Source: Betaproteobacteria bacterium (GTDB lineage Bacteria > Pseudomonadota > Gammaproteobacteria > Burkholderiales > Burkholderiaceae_A). Taken from it: a DNA stretch of 51,930 bases. The notes beneath the pieces were generated by a model. That model was not told the origin of the DNA. It did not search any database and worked only from the letters and a program-made list of their open reading frames with translations. Positions 5,446 to 47,816 of the stretch are shown piece by piece (position 1 is the first letter of the stretch; the number at the start of each line of letters is the position of its first letter). The translations under genes were made by a program, and so were the position numbers. The stretch spans positions 1 to 51,930 of the forward strand of contig VGHK01000015.1 of assembly GCA_016868305.1 (NCBI GenBank), in the 5' to 3' direction.

Positions 5446-6087
5446 TTACGACTTGGCGGGCGCCGCAGCCGGTGCGGCGGTCTGGCTGCTGGTATCGACC
5501 ACCGGTTCGGCACCACCGGCCTTCGACGCCGTGGCCACCACCGGGTCGGTCTGGCCATGGAGCACCAGGCTTACACCCGCTGGAACCTTGATGTTACTGA
5601 CATGCACGGGGTGCGACAACGACAGGCCTGAGAGATCAACTTCGAGGAAGCTGGGCAGGTCTTTGGGCAGACAGCTGACCTCAAGCTCATTCAGGATATG
5701 GCTGACGATGGCGGCTTCAAGCTTCACAGCAGGCGAGTTTTCCTGGCCCACAAAGTGCAGGGGCACCTTGGTATGCAGCTTGGCATTGACATCAATACGT
5801 TGGAAGTCTACGTGCAGCACCTGCGCCTTGTAGGGATGCATTTGAAAGTCGCGCAGCAAGACCTGTTCGGCCTGACCGTCGAGTTCGAGCGACAGAATAG
5901 ACGAGTGAAACGCTTCAGCCTTGAGCGAGAGAAAGATGGGGTTGTGGTCCATCTCGATGGAGACAGGGGCCGTGGTGCCACCGTAGACAATTCCGGGAAC
6001 CTTGCCGCTTCGGCGAAGACGGCGGCTCGCACCCGATCCTTGCACCGAACGGCGGCTTGCAACCACTTTAGAGGTGGAAACTTTCAT
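5446..6087 (-). CDS. rplY: 50S ribosomal protein L25 (general stress protein Ctc form)
   Basis: The product (213 residues) is the long two-domain L25/Ctc form: an N-terminal 5S-rRNA-binding beta barrel ([29 protein letters not shown]) and a C-terminal beta domain ([16 protein letters not shown]), ending in an Ala/Pro-rich tail. The ATG at 6087 has GGAG seven bases upstream and gives [13 protein letters not shown]; the frame extends five codons further without support. It sits between prs and pth. Confidence 0.96.
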
Positions 6088-24728: not shown

Positions 24729-26945
<2,217 letters not shown>

Positions 26946-40253: not shown

Positions 40254-41912
40254 ATGAGAGTACTTCTTTTCCGTTTAGGGGCGGTCTTCAGTCTGTTGGT
40301 TCTCGTTAGCGCCTGGTTGGAGTCGCCAAGGGCAAGCGGGGTGGGCCCGGCCCCTGGGCCAGCCGCCTCGCCCGCTCCTCTGCCCGCCCTGGGGGAGACG
40401 TCCACAGATGTTCTGTCCGGTGCCGCCGAGCGCCGACTCGGGCGGTCTATTTTTGAGCAGCTGCTCAGGGCGCGGGTGGTGCACGATGACCCTGAGGCCC
40501 AGGACTATCTCCAGGTGCAGGCCTCCCGGCTATTGTCTGCAGCGCTTGCGCGCAGCGAACTCGGCGCAGAGGCCGGACTGCTTCCCGAAGACTTTCGGTT
40601 TTTTCTCGTAAAGGACCCGAGTATTAATGCCTTTGCCCTGCCGGGGGGGTATATCGGGGTGCACACCGGCCTAGTGGTTCAGTCGGCGCGTGAGTCTGAG
40701 CTGATGTCGGTGCTCGCCCACGAGATCGGGCATGTCACGCAGCGCCATATTGCCCGGCTGTTTGGTCAGCAGCGTCAGTCGTCCGGGGTGATGATTGCTG
40801 CCGCCCTCTTAGCCGCAATTGCCGCGGCCAGCAGCCCGGACGCGGCTATGGGCATTGTCTCACTGGGGCAGACGGTGGCGGTGCGAGAACAGCTCGCGTT
40901 TTCGCGGGATGCCGAGCGCGAGGCGGATCGTATTGGCCTGCTTCTGCTTGAAGAGTCTGGCTTTGCGCCCGAGGCTATGGCCGAGCTTTTTCAGAAGCTG
41001 TCTCAGGCGGGAAGGTATTACGAGTCTGCAGCGCCATCCTGGCTGCGAAGCCACCCCCTAACCTTAGAGCGAATCGCGGACGTACAGGCCCGCCTGCAGG
41101 CCCGGGCAGCCCCCTTCAGACCGCAAGGGCCTGAGGCTTCTGGCAGCCTGGAGTTCGCATGGATTCGGCAGCGGCTTGCGGCAACCGCAGACCAGTCCGT
41201 CAATGGCCTTGCCCGATCGGCAACACTGCTTGCTACCCAGCGTGCGGACCCAGTGTTTGCTGCTGCAGCAGATCAGGCAAGACTCGCCTATGGCCAGGCC
41301 TGGGTTGCGCTTGGGCAGGGCGATAGCGCTGCCGCTCGGGCGTTTATTGATCAATCGATGAACGCTGCGGCCCAGGCAGATAATGCCGCGCGCAGGAAGG
41401 GCGATACAGATGCTGGTCCGGGAATCATAACGCTGGCCCAGCCTTTCTGGGCCTTGGCCAAGGCACGCGCCTGGCAGCAGTCCGGTCAGCCGGCCAATGC
41501 CCTCACCGAGGTAGAGGCGGCATTGCTTGCCAGCCCGCAGTCTATTGCCACTCGGGCACTGGTGCGGGTGGCGATTACCGTGGAGCTAGACCTTGGTCGC
41601 GCACAGCCTGCCCTCACCCGTGCCCGTTGGTTATCTACCCACTGGCCCCATGATGCGGAGGCATGGCGGCTGCATGCCCAGGCAGCTGCAGCGGCCAGTC
41701 GCCTAACCGAGGCGCATGCAGCCCAGGCTGAACGTTATGTGCTGCAGGGGGGCCTGGCTGCTGCCTTAGAGCAGCTTGCTCTGGCGCGAAAGGCCGCAGG
41801 CACCGCCTCTGGATCTGGAGACCAGTTTATGTCTTTGTCTCGGATCGATGCCCGAATTGGGCAGCTTCGCCAAGAGATGCTGCGGCTAAAAGAAGAGGGT
41901 CGCCAGCCCTAA
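40254..41912 (+). CDS. bepA: Periplasmic M48 metalloprotease with TPR-like C-terminus (BepA-like)
   Basis: An N-terminal signal segment (residues 4-22) is followed by an M48 peptidase domain with the zinc motif [12 protein letters not shown] (His156, Glu157, His160), the third ligand in [12 protein letters not shown], and a helical C-terminal half that resembles TPR repeats. BepA (YfgC) checks LptD and BAM assembly in the periplasm. The 552 residues match. The gene starts at the ATG at 40254; the upstream part of the frame overlaps moaC. Its 3' end overlaps mgtE by 27 bp. Confidence 0.93.
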
Positions 41913-43346
41913 AAAAATAAAGAACCCCATCGAGTCGGTGCTAAAGGTAAGAAGTACCGAGGCCCCGAGCGCCGGGTCGCGCCCCAGCTTTTGCAGCAGC
42001 ATGGGCACAAAGATGGCAATCAGGGCGGCAATCAGGAGGTTGAGCATAATCGCCAGTATCATGGTGAGCCCCAGTAGCATTCCCTGATCCGACCCCGAGT
42101 AGAGCCACCAGGCGAATAGCCCGGCCACAAGCCCCCAGACCAGGCCGTTGAGTGCGGCGATCGAGAGCTCTTTGGCAAAGAGCCGAGAGAGATTACTTGC
42201 TGTCACCTGTCCAAGCGCCATGGAGCGAATAAAGATGGTCATGGTCTGGTTACCAGTGTTCCCAGCAATGCCCGCCACAATCGGCATGAGCGCGGCAAGG
42301 GCCACCACCTTTTCAATCGTGCCCTCGAAGGCGCCGATCACGCGCGAGGCAAAAAACGCGGTGCAGAGGTTTAAGGCGAGCCAGAGCCAGCGGTTGCGGG
42401 CCGAGGCCCAGATGGAGGCAAACAGGTCTTCCTCTTCGCGCAGGCCTGCCTGGGCAAGCACGTCAGAGTCGCCTTCCTCGCGAATCACATCGACTACCTC
42501 AGAGACCGTCAGGCGGCCAATGAGCTTGCCATGTTCATCAACAACCGGTGCCGATACCAGGTCGTAGCGCTGAAACGCCTGGGCGGCCCCAAAGGCATCG
42601 TCGCGGGCATTGAGTGAGAGAAGGTCATGCCGCATAACCTCGGCCACCAGGGTCTCTGGCTCGTTGAGCAGTAGCTGATCGATCGATAAGGCTCCCCGAA
42701 GATGCTCCTTTCGGTCGACGACAAAGACCTGGTCCGTATGGGCCGGCAGCGCCTCAAACCGCCGCAGGTAGCGCAAGACAACCTCAAGCGTGACATCGTC
42801 CCGAATCGTGACCATCTCGAAGTCCATACGGGCTCCGACGCTGTCCTCGGGATACGACATTGCCGCCCGCAGCTGCTCCCGCTCCTCAATGGTCAGTCCC
42901 TGGCGCACGCGTTCGACGACATCAAACGGGAGTTCCTCGGCCATGGCTGCCAGGTCGTCGGTATCCAGAGACTGGGCCATCTGAATCAGGGCGCTGCGGG
43001 ACATCATCTCGATGATCGGGGCCCGCACGGCGGGGCTGAGTTCGACCAGGACCGGGCCGTGACGATTCTCATGCACCAGGGGCCAGAGCAGCTCGCGTTG
43101 CTCCCGCGGAAGAGCCTCAAGCACATAGGCGATATCGGCTGCATGCAGGGGCGCGATGCGGGCCGCCAGGGTGTTTCGCTGCTGCTTGGCGACCAACTGC
43201 TCGACTAAGGCCTGGCGCTCCGGCTCGGTGGGATGCTGCTCGCGATGGACCAGCTCGGCCTCGACCTTTAGCCGGGCCAGCAGGTCTTGAATTTCCGCCA
43301 AGGCCCGGTGGGCCGCCTCGGGCTCGCGGGGTAGGGCAGTGTTCAT
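41886..43346 (-). CDS. mgtE: Magnesium transporter MgtE
   Basis: The 486-residue protein has the MgtE order: N-terminal helical domain (about 30-135, HAADIAYVLEALPREQRELL), a CBS pair (about 140-265, ALPAHTDQVFVVDRKEHLRG and VSAPVVDEHGKLIGRLTV), and a five-helix membrane domain with PIVAGIAGNTGNQTMTIFIRS. It conducts Mg2+ and is gated by Mg2+ binding to the cytosolic part. Its ATG overlaps the stop of the rnb-aroE fusion gene as ATGA. Confidence 0.95.
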   Translation of the reverse strand: MNTALPREPEAAHRALAEIQDLLARLKVEAELVHREQHPTEPERQALVEQLVAKQQRNTLAARIAPLHAADIAYVLEALPREQRELLWPLVHENRHGPVLVELSPAVRAPIIEMMSRSALIQMAQSLDTDDLAAMAEELPFDVVERVRQGLTIEEREQLRAAMSYPEDSVGARMDFEMVTIRDDVTLEVVLRYLRRFEALPAHTDQVFVVDRKEHLRGALSIDQLLLNEPETLVAEVMRHDLLSLNARDDAFGAAQAFQRYDLVSAPVVDEHGKLIGRLTVSEVVDVIREEGDSDVLAQAGLREEEDLFASIWASARNRWLWLALNLCTAFFASRVIGAFEGTIEKVVALAALMPIVAGIAGNTGNQTMTIFIRSMALGQVTASNLSRLFAKELSIAALNGLVWGLVAGLFAWWLYSGSDQGMLLGLTMILAIMLNLLIAALIAIFVPMLLQKLGRDPALGASVLLTFSTDSMGFFIFLGLATLFF

Positions 43347-46288
43347 GCGTCAGACTCCAGCGCGGCCACTAGGGCCTCGCGCACCGGCTCAGTATCCGGG
43401 CGCTGTCCTGTCCACAGAAAAAAGCTTTCGGCGGCCTGCTCCACCAGCATTCCCAGGCCGTCGGCACAAAGCGGGGCGCCAGCCGCCCGGGCCTGGCCGA
43501 GGAATACCTCGGCCTTAGGGCCATACATCAGGTCAAGGACCAGTTGCGCGCTTGTGAAGATACGGGGATGCACTGCAAGGCTGGCACCTTCGAGGCTCGC
43601 GGCAGTGGCGTTGATCACCAGACTGGGCCAGGGGCTGCCGTCCGGTAGGGTTTCGGCCTGCAGGGCATCAAGGCCCAACGGAATGAGAGGCGCAGACAGG
43701 GAGTGGTTCATTTGCTCGGCTAGGGCGATGGCCTTTTCAACCGACCGGTTGGCCAGCACGATTCGCTGCAGACCGGCGTCGCGAAACGGGCTGATCAGAC
43801 CCCGGGTGGCCCCGCCAGCGCCAATAATGAGCACCTCGTTGCCGTTGAGCCCACCGTCTCCCAGGATGCGGGTCAGGTCGCGCACCAGACCAATACCGTC
43901 GGTGTTGTCGGCCGACCATGATCCCCCTTCGGCCGCCTCGCCTGTCTGGTTTGTCTCTGCAACGCGCACCAGCGTATTGACCGCGCCGGCCGCCTGGGCC
44001 CGCGGCGCGATATTCCAGCCACGGGTCTGGGCGAGCGCGAAGGCAGCCTCCTTTAAGGGAATGGTGAGGTTAAGCCCCTTGTAGCCCTCTGCCCAGAGAC
44101 GGTCGAGCGTCTGGGCAAGGGCCTCTGCCGAGGTCTCAATCCGGTCGTACTGCAGGGCCGCTTCAGACTGGCCTGCAAAGGCATGGTGGATGAAGGGTGA
44201 GCGGCTATGGGCAATGGGTGAGCCCAGCACCGCGTAATGATCAACCCGTGATTCCTTCAGAATGCCCTGGCCGCGTGCCTCGAGATGGATATCGAGCGCA
44301 TCGCCACTGAGGAGTTCGACCTGGACCTCGGTTCCGGGCGCAAGCTGGGACCAGTCTGGCAGACGAACGATCGCTGGGGCACGGCGCAGCCTGAAGAGTC
44401 CCTCCCGGCCAGCTACCGCAGGCTCGATGATCGGCGGCTGGTCTGGGCTACGTGACCAGGATTCGGTTGGCATACCGGCCTGCGCCCCAAGCCACCGAAT
44501 GCTCCAGTACCGCTCCATCTGGGTCTGAAACTCAGCGTATCGGTCATAGCAGGCGTCGAAATGCGCGAGGTCGGCATAGAGCGAGGCATCGGCCTGGCGA
44601 AACACCGCCCGTCGCTGCCCGAGCACTGCCAGAAGCTGCCACTGGTTGATCAGGTCGCTATAGCGCCGCAGCGGTGAGGTGGACCAAGCGTAGTGGCTGA
44701 CACCGAGCCCTTGGTGCGGGCCTGGGCTTGTCTGCATGCGCACGCGCCCAAAGGTCTGGCAGCGGTAGATTCCGGGCAACTGGGCAAGTGCCAGGGCCTC
44801 ACCCCAGGCCACATTGGTCGCGATCATGAATTCTGAGACCAGAATATCGAGTGCGGATCCGCGGCGGCGCAGGCTGATCTCGGGAGTGCCCAGCCCCAGC
44901 TGATGGGCCCGGGGATCGTCGTGCCAGCGAACGCTTAGCTGAAAGTCGGTGCGGCCGGTGGGCTCGGGCTTGCCGCGTGCGGTTTCGCGCGCCCTGCGCA
45001 GCCCACGGGCGAGAAACAGCAGAGGCAGCAGCCCCGTCCATGGCAGGTCGGCGCATTGCGGCCGGGCTGGCGTATCAAGTGCTTCGGGCTGCACGGTCTC
45101 TAAGGTCTGGGTCAATGTCTCAAACCCCTCCTCCCAGTCTCCGTGACGAATGTTCTGGGCGATCTCTACTGTCTCTACGCAGCTCGTCTGGCGAAGACGC
45201 TCGCCTTGGGGGGAGAATTCTAAGTATAAGGAGACCGCAGGCACCCGAGCGCCCGCATCCAGCGAGGCCAGGGCGATAGCCTCTGGCGGCAGCATGGTGA
45301 TCTTTTCCCCAGGAAAGTAGACCGTTGAGGCCCGGTCGCGCGCCCACTGGCCCAGAGCGCTTTCAGGCTCAATGAGCAGGCCCGGGGCTGCGATATGAAT
45401 GCCCACCCGCCAGCCCGAAAACACTGGCTCGGCTGCGGTGCCCTCCTGATCAGGCGTTGGCGCGTAGAGGGGTACCAGAGAGAATGCATCATCGACCTCA
45501 AAGGTATCGGCATCGTCAATCGAATAGGCAACTGCCTGGGCCTGCGGAAGGCTTTGCAGCAGGGCCGCCTTGCGGTGGGCCAGGGCGGCGAGGTCGAGGC
45601 TGGCAGGCCCTTCGGCATGGGGGTGGGCAAGACCCTCGGTAAGAAATCGAGCCCGGTGCAGGGTATAGGCGCTGGGCAGGGCTCCGCGACTGAGCAATAA
45701 ACGGGAAGGCGTGGTCTGCAGGGTGTGGGCCGCCGATTCGAGGGCCTTGTAGGCGATCGACTGCTTGTCGGGTCGAATGAGCAGGCCCAGGGCCTGACTG
45801 GCGATTTCCTGCGGCAGGGGATCGGTTCCCGCAACAATGGCCTCGGTAAGCTGTGCCTGGGCCTCTGCTGCGAGCCGCTTGCGTTCGGCCCCGGCAAGCG
45901 CCGCCTGCAGGGCCTCTGGCGGCGCCCGCCGAAATACCCCCTTGCCACGCCGATAGAAGTACATGGGGGCGCCGTGCAGGGCAAAGGCCAGGCTTGCCTG
46001 GTCCAGGGCGGATGCCTGGCTGCCATAGACTTCTTGCGAAAATTGGGCAAAGCCGAAGTCATCGTCCGGGGCACACTGCCAGAGAAAGTCTGGGTCAAGC
46101 TCTGCGGCCTGTGACTGGGCCTGACTCAGAAATGCCTCGGCCTCGGGCGTGGCAAACTCCAAGAGGCACTGGGCCTGCTTGACCTTTACCCTGCGGCCCG
46201 AGCCAAGCTCGATCTGCAGGCTGGCCTCGGCCTTGGTCAGGATGCGTCCGGCCCGGTACTGGCCCGCATCTTCAAAAAGGCAGTGCAT
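43343..46288 (-). CDS. In-frame fusion: RNase II-type exoribonuclease + shikimate dehydrogenase (AroE)
   Basis: One open frame of 981 codons joins two enzymes. Residues 1 to about 675 match the Burkholderiales RNase II/RNB protein: ALHGAPMYFYRRGKG, the RNB catalytic block YSIDDADTFEVDDAF (255-269), VYFPGEKITMLPPEAI and a short S1-like end (LPDWSQLAPGTEVQVELL). Residues 683-981 are a full AroE: GSPIAHSRSP (689-698), catalytic Lys746 in NLTIPLKEA, Asp797 in NTDGIGL, the NADP loop GAGGATRG (823-830). AroE reduces 3-dehydroshikimate in aromatic synthesis. In related genomes, as I recall, rnb and aroE are adjacent but separate genes. No ATG, GTG or TTG starts AroE in frame at the junction (near 44242). 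Biological fusion and loss of a stop by sequencing error remain the two explanations. Confidence 0.9.
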   Translation of the reverse strand: MHCLFEDAGQYRAGRILTKAEASLQIELGSGRRVKVKQAQCLLEFATPEAEAFLSQAQSQAAELDPDFLWQCAPDDDFGFAQFSQEVYGSQASALDQASLAFALHGAPMYFYRRGKGVFRRAPPEALQAALAGAERKRLAAEAQAQLTEAIVAGTDPLPQEIASQALGLLIRPDKQSIAYKALESAAHTLQTTPSRLLLSRGALPSAYTLHRARFLTEGLAHPHAEGPASLDLAALAHRKAALLQSLPQAQAVAYSIDDADTFEVDDAFSLVPLYAPTPDQEGTAAEPVFSGWRVGIHIAAPGLLIEPESALGQWARDRASTVYFPGEKITMLPPEAIALASLDAGARVPAVSLYLEFSPQGERLRQTSCVETVEIAQNIRHGDWEEGFETLTQTLETVQPEALDTPARPQCADLPWTGLLPLLFLARGLRRARETARGKPEPTGRTDFQLSVRWHDDPRAHQLGLGTPEISLRRRGSALDILVSEFMIATNVAWGEALALAQLPGIYRCQTFGRVRMQTSPGPHQGLGVSHYAWSTSPLRRYSDLINQWQLLAVLGQRRAVFRQADASLYADLAHFDACYDRYAEFQTQMERYWSIRWLGAQAGMPTESWSRSPDQPPIIEPAVAGREGLFRLRRAPAIVRLPDWSQLAPGTEVQVELLSGDALDIHLEARGQGILKESRVDHYAVLGSPIAHSRSPFIHHAFAGQSEAALQYDRIETSAEALAQTLDRLWAEGYKGLNLTIPLKEAAFALAQTRGWNIAPRAQAAGAVNTLVRVAETNQTGEAAEGGSWSADNTDGIGLVRDLTRILGDGGLNGNEVLIIGAGGATRGLISPFRDAGLQRIVLANRSVEKAIALAEQMNHSLSAPLIPLGLDALQAETLPDGSPWPSLVINATAASLEGASLAVHPRIFTSAQLVLDLMYGPKAEVFLGQARAAGAPLCADGLGMLVEQAAESFFLWTGQRPDTEPVREALVAALESDA

Positions 46289-46302: not shown

Positions 46303-47784
46303 CTAGCCTACAGCCGCCCTGGCGCTACTGTCCGAGCCGGTGCTATTAGAGGTATGCGCGTTGGGCGACTGGCAAGCAGCCAGCGTGGCCAGGAGCCGCT
46401 CATGAATACCGCCAAAGGCACCGTTGCTCATGACCAGGATGTCGTCTCCTGCCTGGGCCTCACGGCAGACTGCCTCGATGAGCACCGCCAGGCTGTCAAA
46501 GGCCTGGGCCTTGCTGCCCAAGGGCGCAAGGGCCTCGCCCAGAGACCAGTCTAGTCCGCCCGAAAAGCCAAAGACCGCATGGGCCTGGGCCAAGGATTCG
46601 GCCAACCGCGCACGCATGACCCCCATTTTCATGGTGTTCGACCGCGGTTCGAGCACCGCCAGAATGCGTCCCCCGGGCCGCTGATGGCGCTGCAGGCCCT
46701 GCAGGGTGGTGGCGATGGCAGTGGGGTGATGGGCAAAGTCATCAAAGATCCGCACCCCGGACCGCTCCCCGCGCAACTGCATTCGTCGCTTGATGCCACG
46801 AAAACCGGGGACTGCCGCGATCAGGTCTGCGATCGGCGCCCCCAGTGAGACGGCCGCTCCAAGGGCTGCCGCCAGATTGGCCCGGTTGTGATCCCCCCAG
46901 AGCGGGCTGGTGACAATACCTTGGGGCTCGCCGTCTAGCCATACTTCGAGCCGGTCACGGCCCGAGTCGTCAGGCGTCGTGGCCACGAGCCGCAGCCGAG
47001 CGGAAGGCTCTGGGGTTGTGTCTGAGCCGTCCCGGGCCGGTGCGCCCTCGGCATGGTCAAACCGATAGACCGGGCTGTAGTGTCCCTTGGCAAGAACCCT
47101 CTCGAGGGCCGACTCCTTGGCCTTTACCCAGAGCGCTCCTGCCGAGGGAAGGGTGCGCACCCAGTGGTGAAACTGGGTCTCAATCGCGGCGAGATCCGCA
47201 AAGATGTCTGCATGATCGAACTCGAGGTTATTGAGGATCGCCACCTCTGCCCGGTAGTGCAGAAACTTTGACCGCTTGTCAAAAAAAGCCGTGTCGTATT
47301 CGTCGGCTTCTATAACAAAAGGCGCCCCGTCTGCAGCCGAACGGGCAGACACTCCAAAGTTTTCGGGAACCCCGCCGATCAGAAACCCCGGCGATAGCCC
47401 GCAGGCATCGAGCAGGTAGGCCAAAAGCGCAGACGTTGTGGTCTTGCCATGGGTGCCAGAGACGGCTGCAAGTCGTGTCGGGCCAAGCACATGGTCAGCC
47501 ATAAACTGCGGGCCGGAGACCATGGGCAGCTTGCGGTTAAGAATTTCTTCGATTAGCGGCAGACCTCTTCGCGCGACATTGCCTACTACCCAGAGGTCTG
47601 GCTTGAGTGCGAGCTGATCTGCTGCAAAGCCCTCGATGAGGTTAATACCGGCCTGGGCGAGCTGGTCGCTCATCGGGGGATAGACCTGGGCATCACAGCC
47701 GGTCACGGTATAGCCCTTGGCCCGGGCAAGCTGCGCCACGCCTCCCATGAATGTGCCACAGATCCCGATGATGTGAATATGCAT
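46303..47784 (-). CDS. mpl: UDP-MurNAc:L-alanyl-gamma-D-glutamyl-meso-DAP ligase
   Basis: Peptidoglycan-recycling ligase that attaches the recovered tripeptide to UDP-MurNAc. The product begins MHIHIIGICGTFMGGVAQLA (start at 47784), followed by the ATP loop SGTHGKTTTSALLAYLL, IEADEYDTAFFDKRSKFLHY and DDFAHHPTAIATTL of the Mur ligase family; the DEYDTAFFDKRSKF block separates Mpl from MurC. It is 493 residues. It is divergent from the hypothetical gene at 47817 across 32 bp. Confidence 0.95.
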   Translation of the reverse strand: MHIHIIGICGTFMGGVAQLARAKGYTVTGCDAQVYPPMSDQLAQAGINLIEGFAADQLALKPDLWVVGNVARRGLPLIEEILNRKLPMVSGPQFMADHVLGPTRLAAVSGTHGKTTTSALLAYLLDACGLSPGFLIGGVPENFGVSARSAADGAPFVIEADEYDTAFFDKRSKFLHYRAEVAILNNLEFDHADIFADLAAIETQFHHWVRTLPSAGALWVKAKESALERVLAKGHYSPVYRFDHAEGAPARDGSDTTPEPSARLRLVATTPDDSGRDRLEVWLDGEPQGIVTSPLWGDHNRANLAAALGAAVSLGAPIADLIAAVPGFRGIKRRMQLRGERSGVRIFDDFAHHPTAIATTLQGLQRHQRPGGRILAVLEPRSNTMKMGVMRARLAESLAQAHAVFGFSGGLDWSLGEALAPLGSKAQAFDSLAVLIEAVCREAQAGDDILVMSNGAFGGIHERLLATLAACQSPNAHTSNSTGSDSSARAAVG

Positions 47785-47816
47785 GCGGCATTGTACGACC
47801 GGCATAATGACGCGCT

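Follow-up and report, generated by a model that had tools for sequence, protein, structure and literature searches.

Most enzyme fusions unite consecutive activities of a single pathway or members of a complex, and the finding that two proteins are fused somewhere is used to predict that they work together. For shikimate dehydrogenase (AroE), AroD-AroE and AroE-AroK fusions are known, according to one report (PMC11237513). Further known fusions are the pentafunctional AROM protein and a chorismate mutase-AroE (PDB 5swv, 3fbt). Among the papers listed in a literature search limited to open-licence papers, none describes a fusion of AroE with an RNB-family exoribonuclease; the domain pairing appears to be new.

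Here, we describe such a gene in a window of 51,930 bases that is the whole of one contig (C15) of a draft genome (2.26 Mb in 97 contigs, 97.45% complete), follow it through the family of its host and beyond, and weigh how it arose and what it may do. Our main reading, to which we give a probability of about 0.83, is that of a lineage-specific read-through fusion of neighbouring genes that would yield one chain of ~105 kDa bearing two self-standing enzymes. A preliminary description of the locus had reported a frame open from 43343 to 46288 across both enzymes, and this is borne out, on the minus strand and with a product of 981 residues. The sequence supports the view that an RNB exoribonuclease and AroE are truly joined in one gene here. 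The features of the locus are as follows.

43343 to 46288, minus strand: rnb-aroE fusion gene, 981 amino acids, ATG start and TGA stop; all 18 genomes of the genera g1 and g2 have the frame in fused form (see below)
44255 to 46288, minus strand: exoribonuclease half, residues 1–678, comprising an N-terminal beta/helical part, the RNB domain and C-terminal S1-like strands
44621 to 45532, minus strand: RNB catalytic domain, matched by PF00773 in two stretches, with the active-site residues in 18 of 18 fused rows
44243 to 44254, minus strand: junction, residues 679–682, from DSSP on the AlphaFold model and from linker lengths and identities
43346 to 44242, minus strand: AroE half, residues 683–981, with K746 and D797 kept and with structure and NCBIfam matches
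41886 to 43346, minus strand: mgtE, the next gene, overlapping the fusion stop by 4 nt (ATGA)
46303 to 47805, minus strand: mpl, the preceding gene, 14 nt before the fusion (TIGR01081, 536.1 bits)

Pfam matches on the 981-residue product, all above their cut-offs, are RNB (residues 253–512, 2.6e-37), Shikimate_dh_N (687–773, 1.6e-18), Shikimate_DH (813–863) and SDH_C (944–973). Downstream, the stop codon of the fusion and the start codon of mgtE share the bases ATGA (43343–43346), which suggests translational coupling of the fusion to this magnesium transporter gene; the bases after the fusion stop vary among relatives. The window gene also carries about 14 extra residues near 275–289 (45422–45466) that occur in none of the 17 other fused rows.

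The family sample (f1) comprised 26 genomes of three genera: g1, the genus of the window (n=11), g2 (n=7) and g3 (n=8), the last belonging to f1 by the label of the genome collection. A search of these relatives for the same arrangement agrees with the single-gene fusion first proposed, as a fused frame open across the junction is present in all 18 genomes of g1 (11/11) and g2 (7/7), with matches at 52–61% protein identity. Fifteen of the 18 frames run complete from start to stop codon; those of G008 and G012 end at contig ends, the rest of the G008 gene lying on a second contig. In G005 (L067, contig C6), an apparent frameshift near codon 50, near record position 375400, lies far from the junction.

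Since the genomes are mostly drafts, and one of them has an apparent frameshift elsewhere in the gene, a sequencing or assembly artefact in which a missed stop codon or frameshift joins two genes had to be considered. We rejected it as exceedingly improbable, given that the same open junction is shared by 18 of 18 related genomes of two genera, among them the single-contig g2 genome G017. The fusion is thus real, because the open junction is kept in every g1 and g2 genome examined.

The arrangement in g3 is different. Both genes are present in two of its eight genomes (G018 and G019) and separate in both, where rnb, its stop codon, 31–32 nt and the ATG of aroE follow one another between mpl and mgtE. 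In G019, mgtE downstream of aroE was identified by Pfam, and mgtE is the gene after aroE in all three f1 loci tested in this way (the window, L002 and L018). Five other g3 genomes (G020–G024; L021–L025) keep aroE beside mpl while rnb is gone, and only one RNB protein was found in each of them. G025, which is 76% complete, has neither gene.

Beyond the family, the fusion appears to be absent from the genomes sampled. The order sample held 399 genomes, 13 of f1 and hence 386 outside it, with matches listed down to about E 9e-117. Ten g1 and g2 genomes in this sample match over both enzymes; among the matches listed, none from the 386 non-f1 genomes does so, and the longest of these ends at query residue 698, after the stop codon. 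A fused gene would hardly fall below about E 9e-117 in this sample. The phylum sample held 398 genomes (397 and the window's own; E ≤ 1e-40; 32 shared with the order sample), and the matches listed from the 397 cover either the exoribonuclease, ending by residue 701, or AroE, never both. The class sample (369 genomes, E ≤ 1e-100) counts for little, its threshold being too strict for distant fusions. We therefore discarded the idea that the fusion is common in the order or phylum, no such match being listed in either sample.

Loci from named genomes reveal how the two genes lie when unfused. Of 12 examined, seven contain both genes (L031–L037), in separate frames in every case. The earlier statement that rnb and aroE are neighbours must be amended: in six of the seven an ORF of about 290–310 residues stands between them. 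This ORF is Pfam TonB_C in 3/3 tested, and the gene after aroE is the transglycosylase mtgA in 2/2 tested. The exception is Ca. Paenalcaligenes intestinipullorum (L034), in which rnb and aroE are unfused with no ORF between and overlap by ~4 nt at about 6034–6037, assuming that aroE starts at its first ATG; here too, as the bases read, the two genes have met.

We examined the two halves in turn. RNB domain PF00773 scores 129.3 bits against a gathering score of 29.3. The acidic block reported before is there as claimed; it consists of D258, E264, D266 and D267, and together with R541 it is found in 18 of 18 fused rows. These four acidic residues and the arginine correspond to the active site of E. 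coli RNase II, in which D207 presumably occupies the position of E264. The Glu does not signify a loss, because all 16 separate rnb rows aligned also have Glu there, as they have the other active-site residues; a stray T in the R541 column comes from an aroE row and is a slip of the alignment.

The label of an RNase II-type enzyme, used in the preliminary description, is apt at superfamily level only: the product falls below the cut-off of the exoribonuclease II model TIGR02062 (61.7 vs 641.9 bits) and also below that of the Ribonuclease R model TIGR02063 (60.1 vs 597.85 bits). Scores so far under both cut-offs indicate that the first half is an RNB-family exoribonuclease of another group. Among proteins of solved structure, the one closest to it in sequence is 2r7d, an RNase II family protein of D. 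radiodurans. In structure comparisons, the model of this half aligns with RNase R over 404 residues (Z 34.8), with 2r7d over 427/459 (Z 34.0) and with RNase II over 401 (Z 32.2), the RNase R and 2r7d matches spanning residues 155–676 of the fusion model. A second RNB protein, which we call RNase R-sized from its size only, is present in 16 of the 18 fused genomes.

Over nine pairs, in which several synonymous rates are near saturation and two comparisons use the cut G008 row, dN/dS was 0.06–0.12 for the exoribonuclease half and 0.05–0.19 for the AroE half. As far as codon substitutions can tell, these values show both halves to be under purifying selection. The idea of an inactive exoribonuclease carried as baggage is not supported, given its kept active-site residues and its dN/dS.

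The AroE half passes both NCBIfam equivalog cut-offs (NF001310.0, 273.2 vs 221 bits; TIGR00507, 202.9 vs 200.2 bits), and its model aligns with V. cholerae AroE (3pgj_A) over 272/272 residues (Z 36.6, rmsd 1.7), a complete fold. Lys746 and Asp797, also named at the outset, are indeed present; in an alignment of 17 fused rows (G005 left out), they are found in all 16 rows that reach both sites and in 12/12 separate aroE rows. They correspond to the catalytic pair K65 and D102 of E. coli AroE. Residue 794, beside the conserved D797, is D in 16 of the 18 fused rows, E in one and cut in one.

Each of the 18 fused genomes has a single Shikimate_dh_N match, always within the fused frame (the two matches of G008 are the two ends of one gene split between contigs). 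This search thus found no second AroE in the 18 genomes, several of whose assemblies are incomplete, and within these assemblies we set aside the idea that another copy makes the fused one superfluous. Chorismate synthase is present in 16/18 fused genomes, and aroA lies within the window at 24950–26284. With the only Shikimate_dh_N domain found lying in the fused frame and these other pathway genes at hand, the genes as read point to a fused AroE that is very probably in use.

To describe the junction we used an AlphaFold model whose input alignment comprised 45 sequences (17 fused, 16 rnb and 12 aroE). It has a mean pLDDT of 93.9 and a pTM of 0.77, and both folds are complete by Foldseek and structure comparison; at this pTM, with no PAE, it does not establish the mutual placement of the halves. 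DSSP places the last strand of the first half at residues 668–678 and the first AroE strand at 683–689, so that four residues are predicted to join two compact folds. By this predicted secondary structure the junction (44243–44254) falls inside the interval 44200–44300 indicated previously.

Linker length was counted between the final D-x-L motif of the exoribonuclease half and the AVLG of AroE. In g1 it is 23 residues long in 9/11 genomes and 22 and 26 in the others; in g2 it is 32 residues in 6/7 genomes and 35 in the other. In g1 (G008 left out), the linker averages 18% identity while the two halves reach 56% and 53%; the corresponding g2 values are 52%, 75% and 72%. Over both genera the linker has 20% identity, and no other stretch compared is less conserved. 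In g1 its length is held tighter than its sequence, which leaves room for a geometric constraint. So nearly fixed a length might reflect a role of geometry, which would tell against complete independence of the halves.

These data bear on two ways in which the halves might be more, or less, than two enzymes on one chain. One, raised in the preliminary description, is that the full-length chain is cleaved after translation to release two enzymes. A linker that is the least conserved stretch leaves this as a bare possibility; with identities of 18% in g1 and 52% in g2 it offers no shared site, no common motif is apparent by eye in the 18 linkers, and at the window junction only about four residues are predicted to be free of strand structure. 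Cleavage accordingly lacks sequence support, and we hold it to be very unlikely.

The other is that the fusion couples the activities: either enzyme would be altered by bound RNA or by having AroE next to the S1-like domain. An effect of RNA on AroE had also been raised in the preliminary description. The 23-residue linker of nine of the 11 g1 genomes, kept despite ~18% identity, would fit such coupling, as would the mere four residues that the model leaves between the folds. However, the linker differs between g1 and g2 in length (23 vs 32 residues) and in sequence, and each half occurs alone elsewhere, G020–G024 keeping aroE without rnb beside it. We regard coupling as unlikely, and equally so its variant, in which AroE would sense a metabolite and thereby control the exonuclease. 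Two independent enzymes on one chain would be the plainest reading of the gene.

A tentative but serious alternative is that one frame gives two products, the fusion and a free AroE started from a surviving internal ribosome-binding site. It is strongest for g2, the site being gone in the window. All seven g2 genomes (L003, L004, L007, L008, L009, L011 and L014) have an in-frame start codon 6–10 codons before AVLG (six ATG, one TTG), sitting behind a GAGGAG-like stretch with a duplex energy of −8.3 to −12.1. Among the other in-frame starts of the g2 frames, −8 is reached by 0/132 ATG codons and by 0.7% of 458 when ATG, GTG and TTG are counted. To judge from its bases, the g2 site looks like a fossil of aroE's own ribosome-binding site. 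In g1 the best duplex energy is −6.9, and five of 11 genomes, the window included, are without a start codon in the zone before AroE. The 13-base 16S 3' end was found in 7/26 f1 genomes, and in g2 only in G013 and G017.

Several results weaken the case for an internal start. When codons were resampled synonymously, keeping the same residues, an equal or stronger energy arose in 28–77% of draws, which means that nothing is favoured beyond the Glu-Glu residues. In 140 kb of G017, sites at −8 are somewhat commoner near gene starts (10/79) than inside genes (4/79). A dip in synonymous rate across the linker stands out in a single trio and at a single window size (rank 14/910); the rank is 67–68 at two other sizes and 130–353 of about 930 over all g2 pairs. 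The seven g2 genomes are, moreover, related and not independent. Shine-Dalgarno motifs are described as underrepresented inside ORFs in another report (PMC7043885). Because codon resampling and the G017 survey weakened the first comparison, we keep the internal start as a rival only.

Trees bear on the origin of the fusion. In a tree of RNB plus AroE (26 rows), a single branch separates the fused rows from the others, with a support of 92/96, below the tool's star, and g1 and g2 each form one clade. A tree of mpl (22 rows) likewise groups g1 (86/94), g2 (92/92) and g3 (100/97) each together, leaving g1, g2 and the outgroups unsorted against one another. The placement of g3 is unsure because it forms a long branch of odd composition. 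A fusion in the common ancestor followed by fission in g3 would be compatible with the trees taken alone, given the modest 92/96, the unsettled order of g1, g2 and outgroups in the mpl tree and that long, compositionally odd branch; all outgroups are unfused, however, which speaks against it. With the outgroups unfused, g3 unfused with a spacer of 31–32 nt and two genera fused, we favour a single fusion event.

For the read-through fusion we infer the following order of events, gene loss and then stop loss. In the f1 ancestor, the tonB-like gene that commonly separates rnb from aroE would have been lost, so that only some tens of bases lay between the two. The rnb stop codon would then have been lost, once, in the ancestor shared by g1 and g2, and the spacer would have become a short in-frame linker. 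The product would be one polypeptide of ~105 kDa in which exoribonuclease and shikimate dehydrogenase each fold and work alone; we infer from the gene that it is made as one chain, with both halves active and nothing coupling them. Chance may have fixed the fusion in small genomes, and the need for aroE may have kept it from then on; the tie to aroE would also shield the exoribonuclease from a loss like that in g3.

Equal expression, put forward earlier, is a possible reason for the fusion. That it is kept for a function, with a dispensable exoribonuclease tied to the sole AroE in a fixed geometry, on a shared chain and perhaps under shared control, and with a free AroE in g2 that g1 has given up, seems rather unlikely to us. 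The read-through fusion may also illustrate the way in which a gene that is dispensable is tied to one that is needed, an idea that follows from the five of eight g3 genomes that keep aroE without rnb while 18/18 fused genomes retain both halves. It is a well-conserved fusion of two enzymes without a known link, and unfused relatives in the same family make its origin and consequences testable.

Among described systems, the unfused clusters of Alcaligenaceae and Tepidiphilus (L031–L037) have the same two genes in the same order and on the same strand as the fusion, and the four Alcaligenaceae loci have an mpl-like ORF upstream, as in the window; the three Tepidiphilus loci have no mpl-like ORF within 4 kb. 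They differ from the fusion in their separate frames, in the ORF between the genes (6/7) and in having mtgA, not mgtE, downstream (2/2 tested). With RNB exoribonucleases (PF00773; 2r7d, E. coli RNase II and RNase R) the first half has in common the RNB fold, the acidic block, the arginine and an S1-like C-terminus; it differs from RNase II and RNase R in scoring below their equivalog cut-offs and in having Glu where the E. coli enzyme has D207. With stand-alone AroE (NF001310/TIGR00507; PDB 3pgj, 1nyt) the second half has in common the whole fold and the K/D pair, but here AroE is the C-terminal half of a 981-residue chain, with no start codon at the window junction. Finally, in the known AroE fusions, with AroD, AroK, AROM or chorismate mutase, AroE is covalently joined to another enzyme, as it is here; there the partner comes from the aromatic pathway, whereas here the partner degrades RNA.
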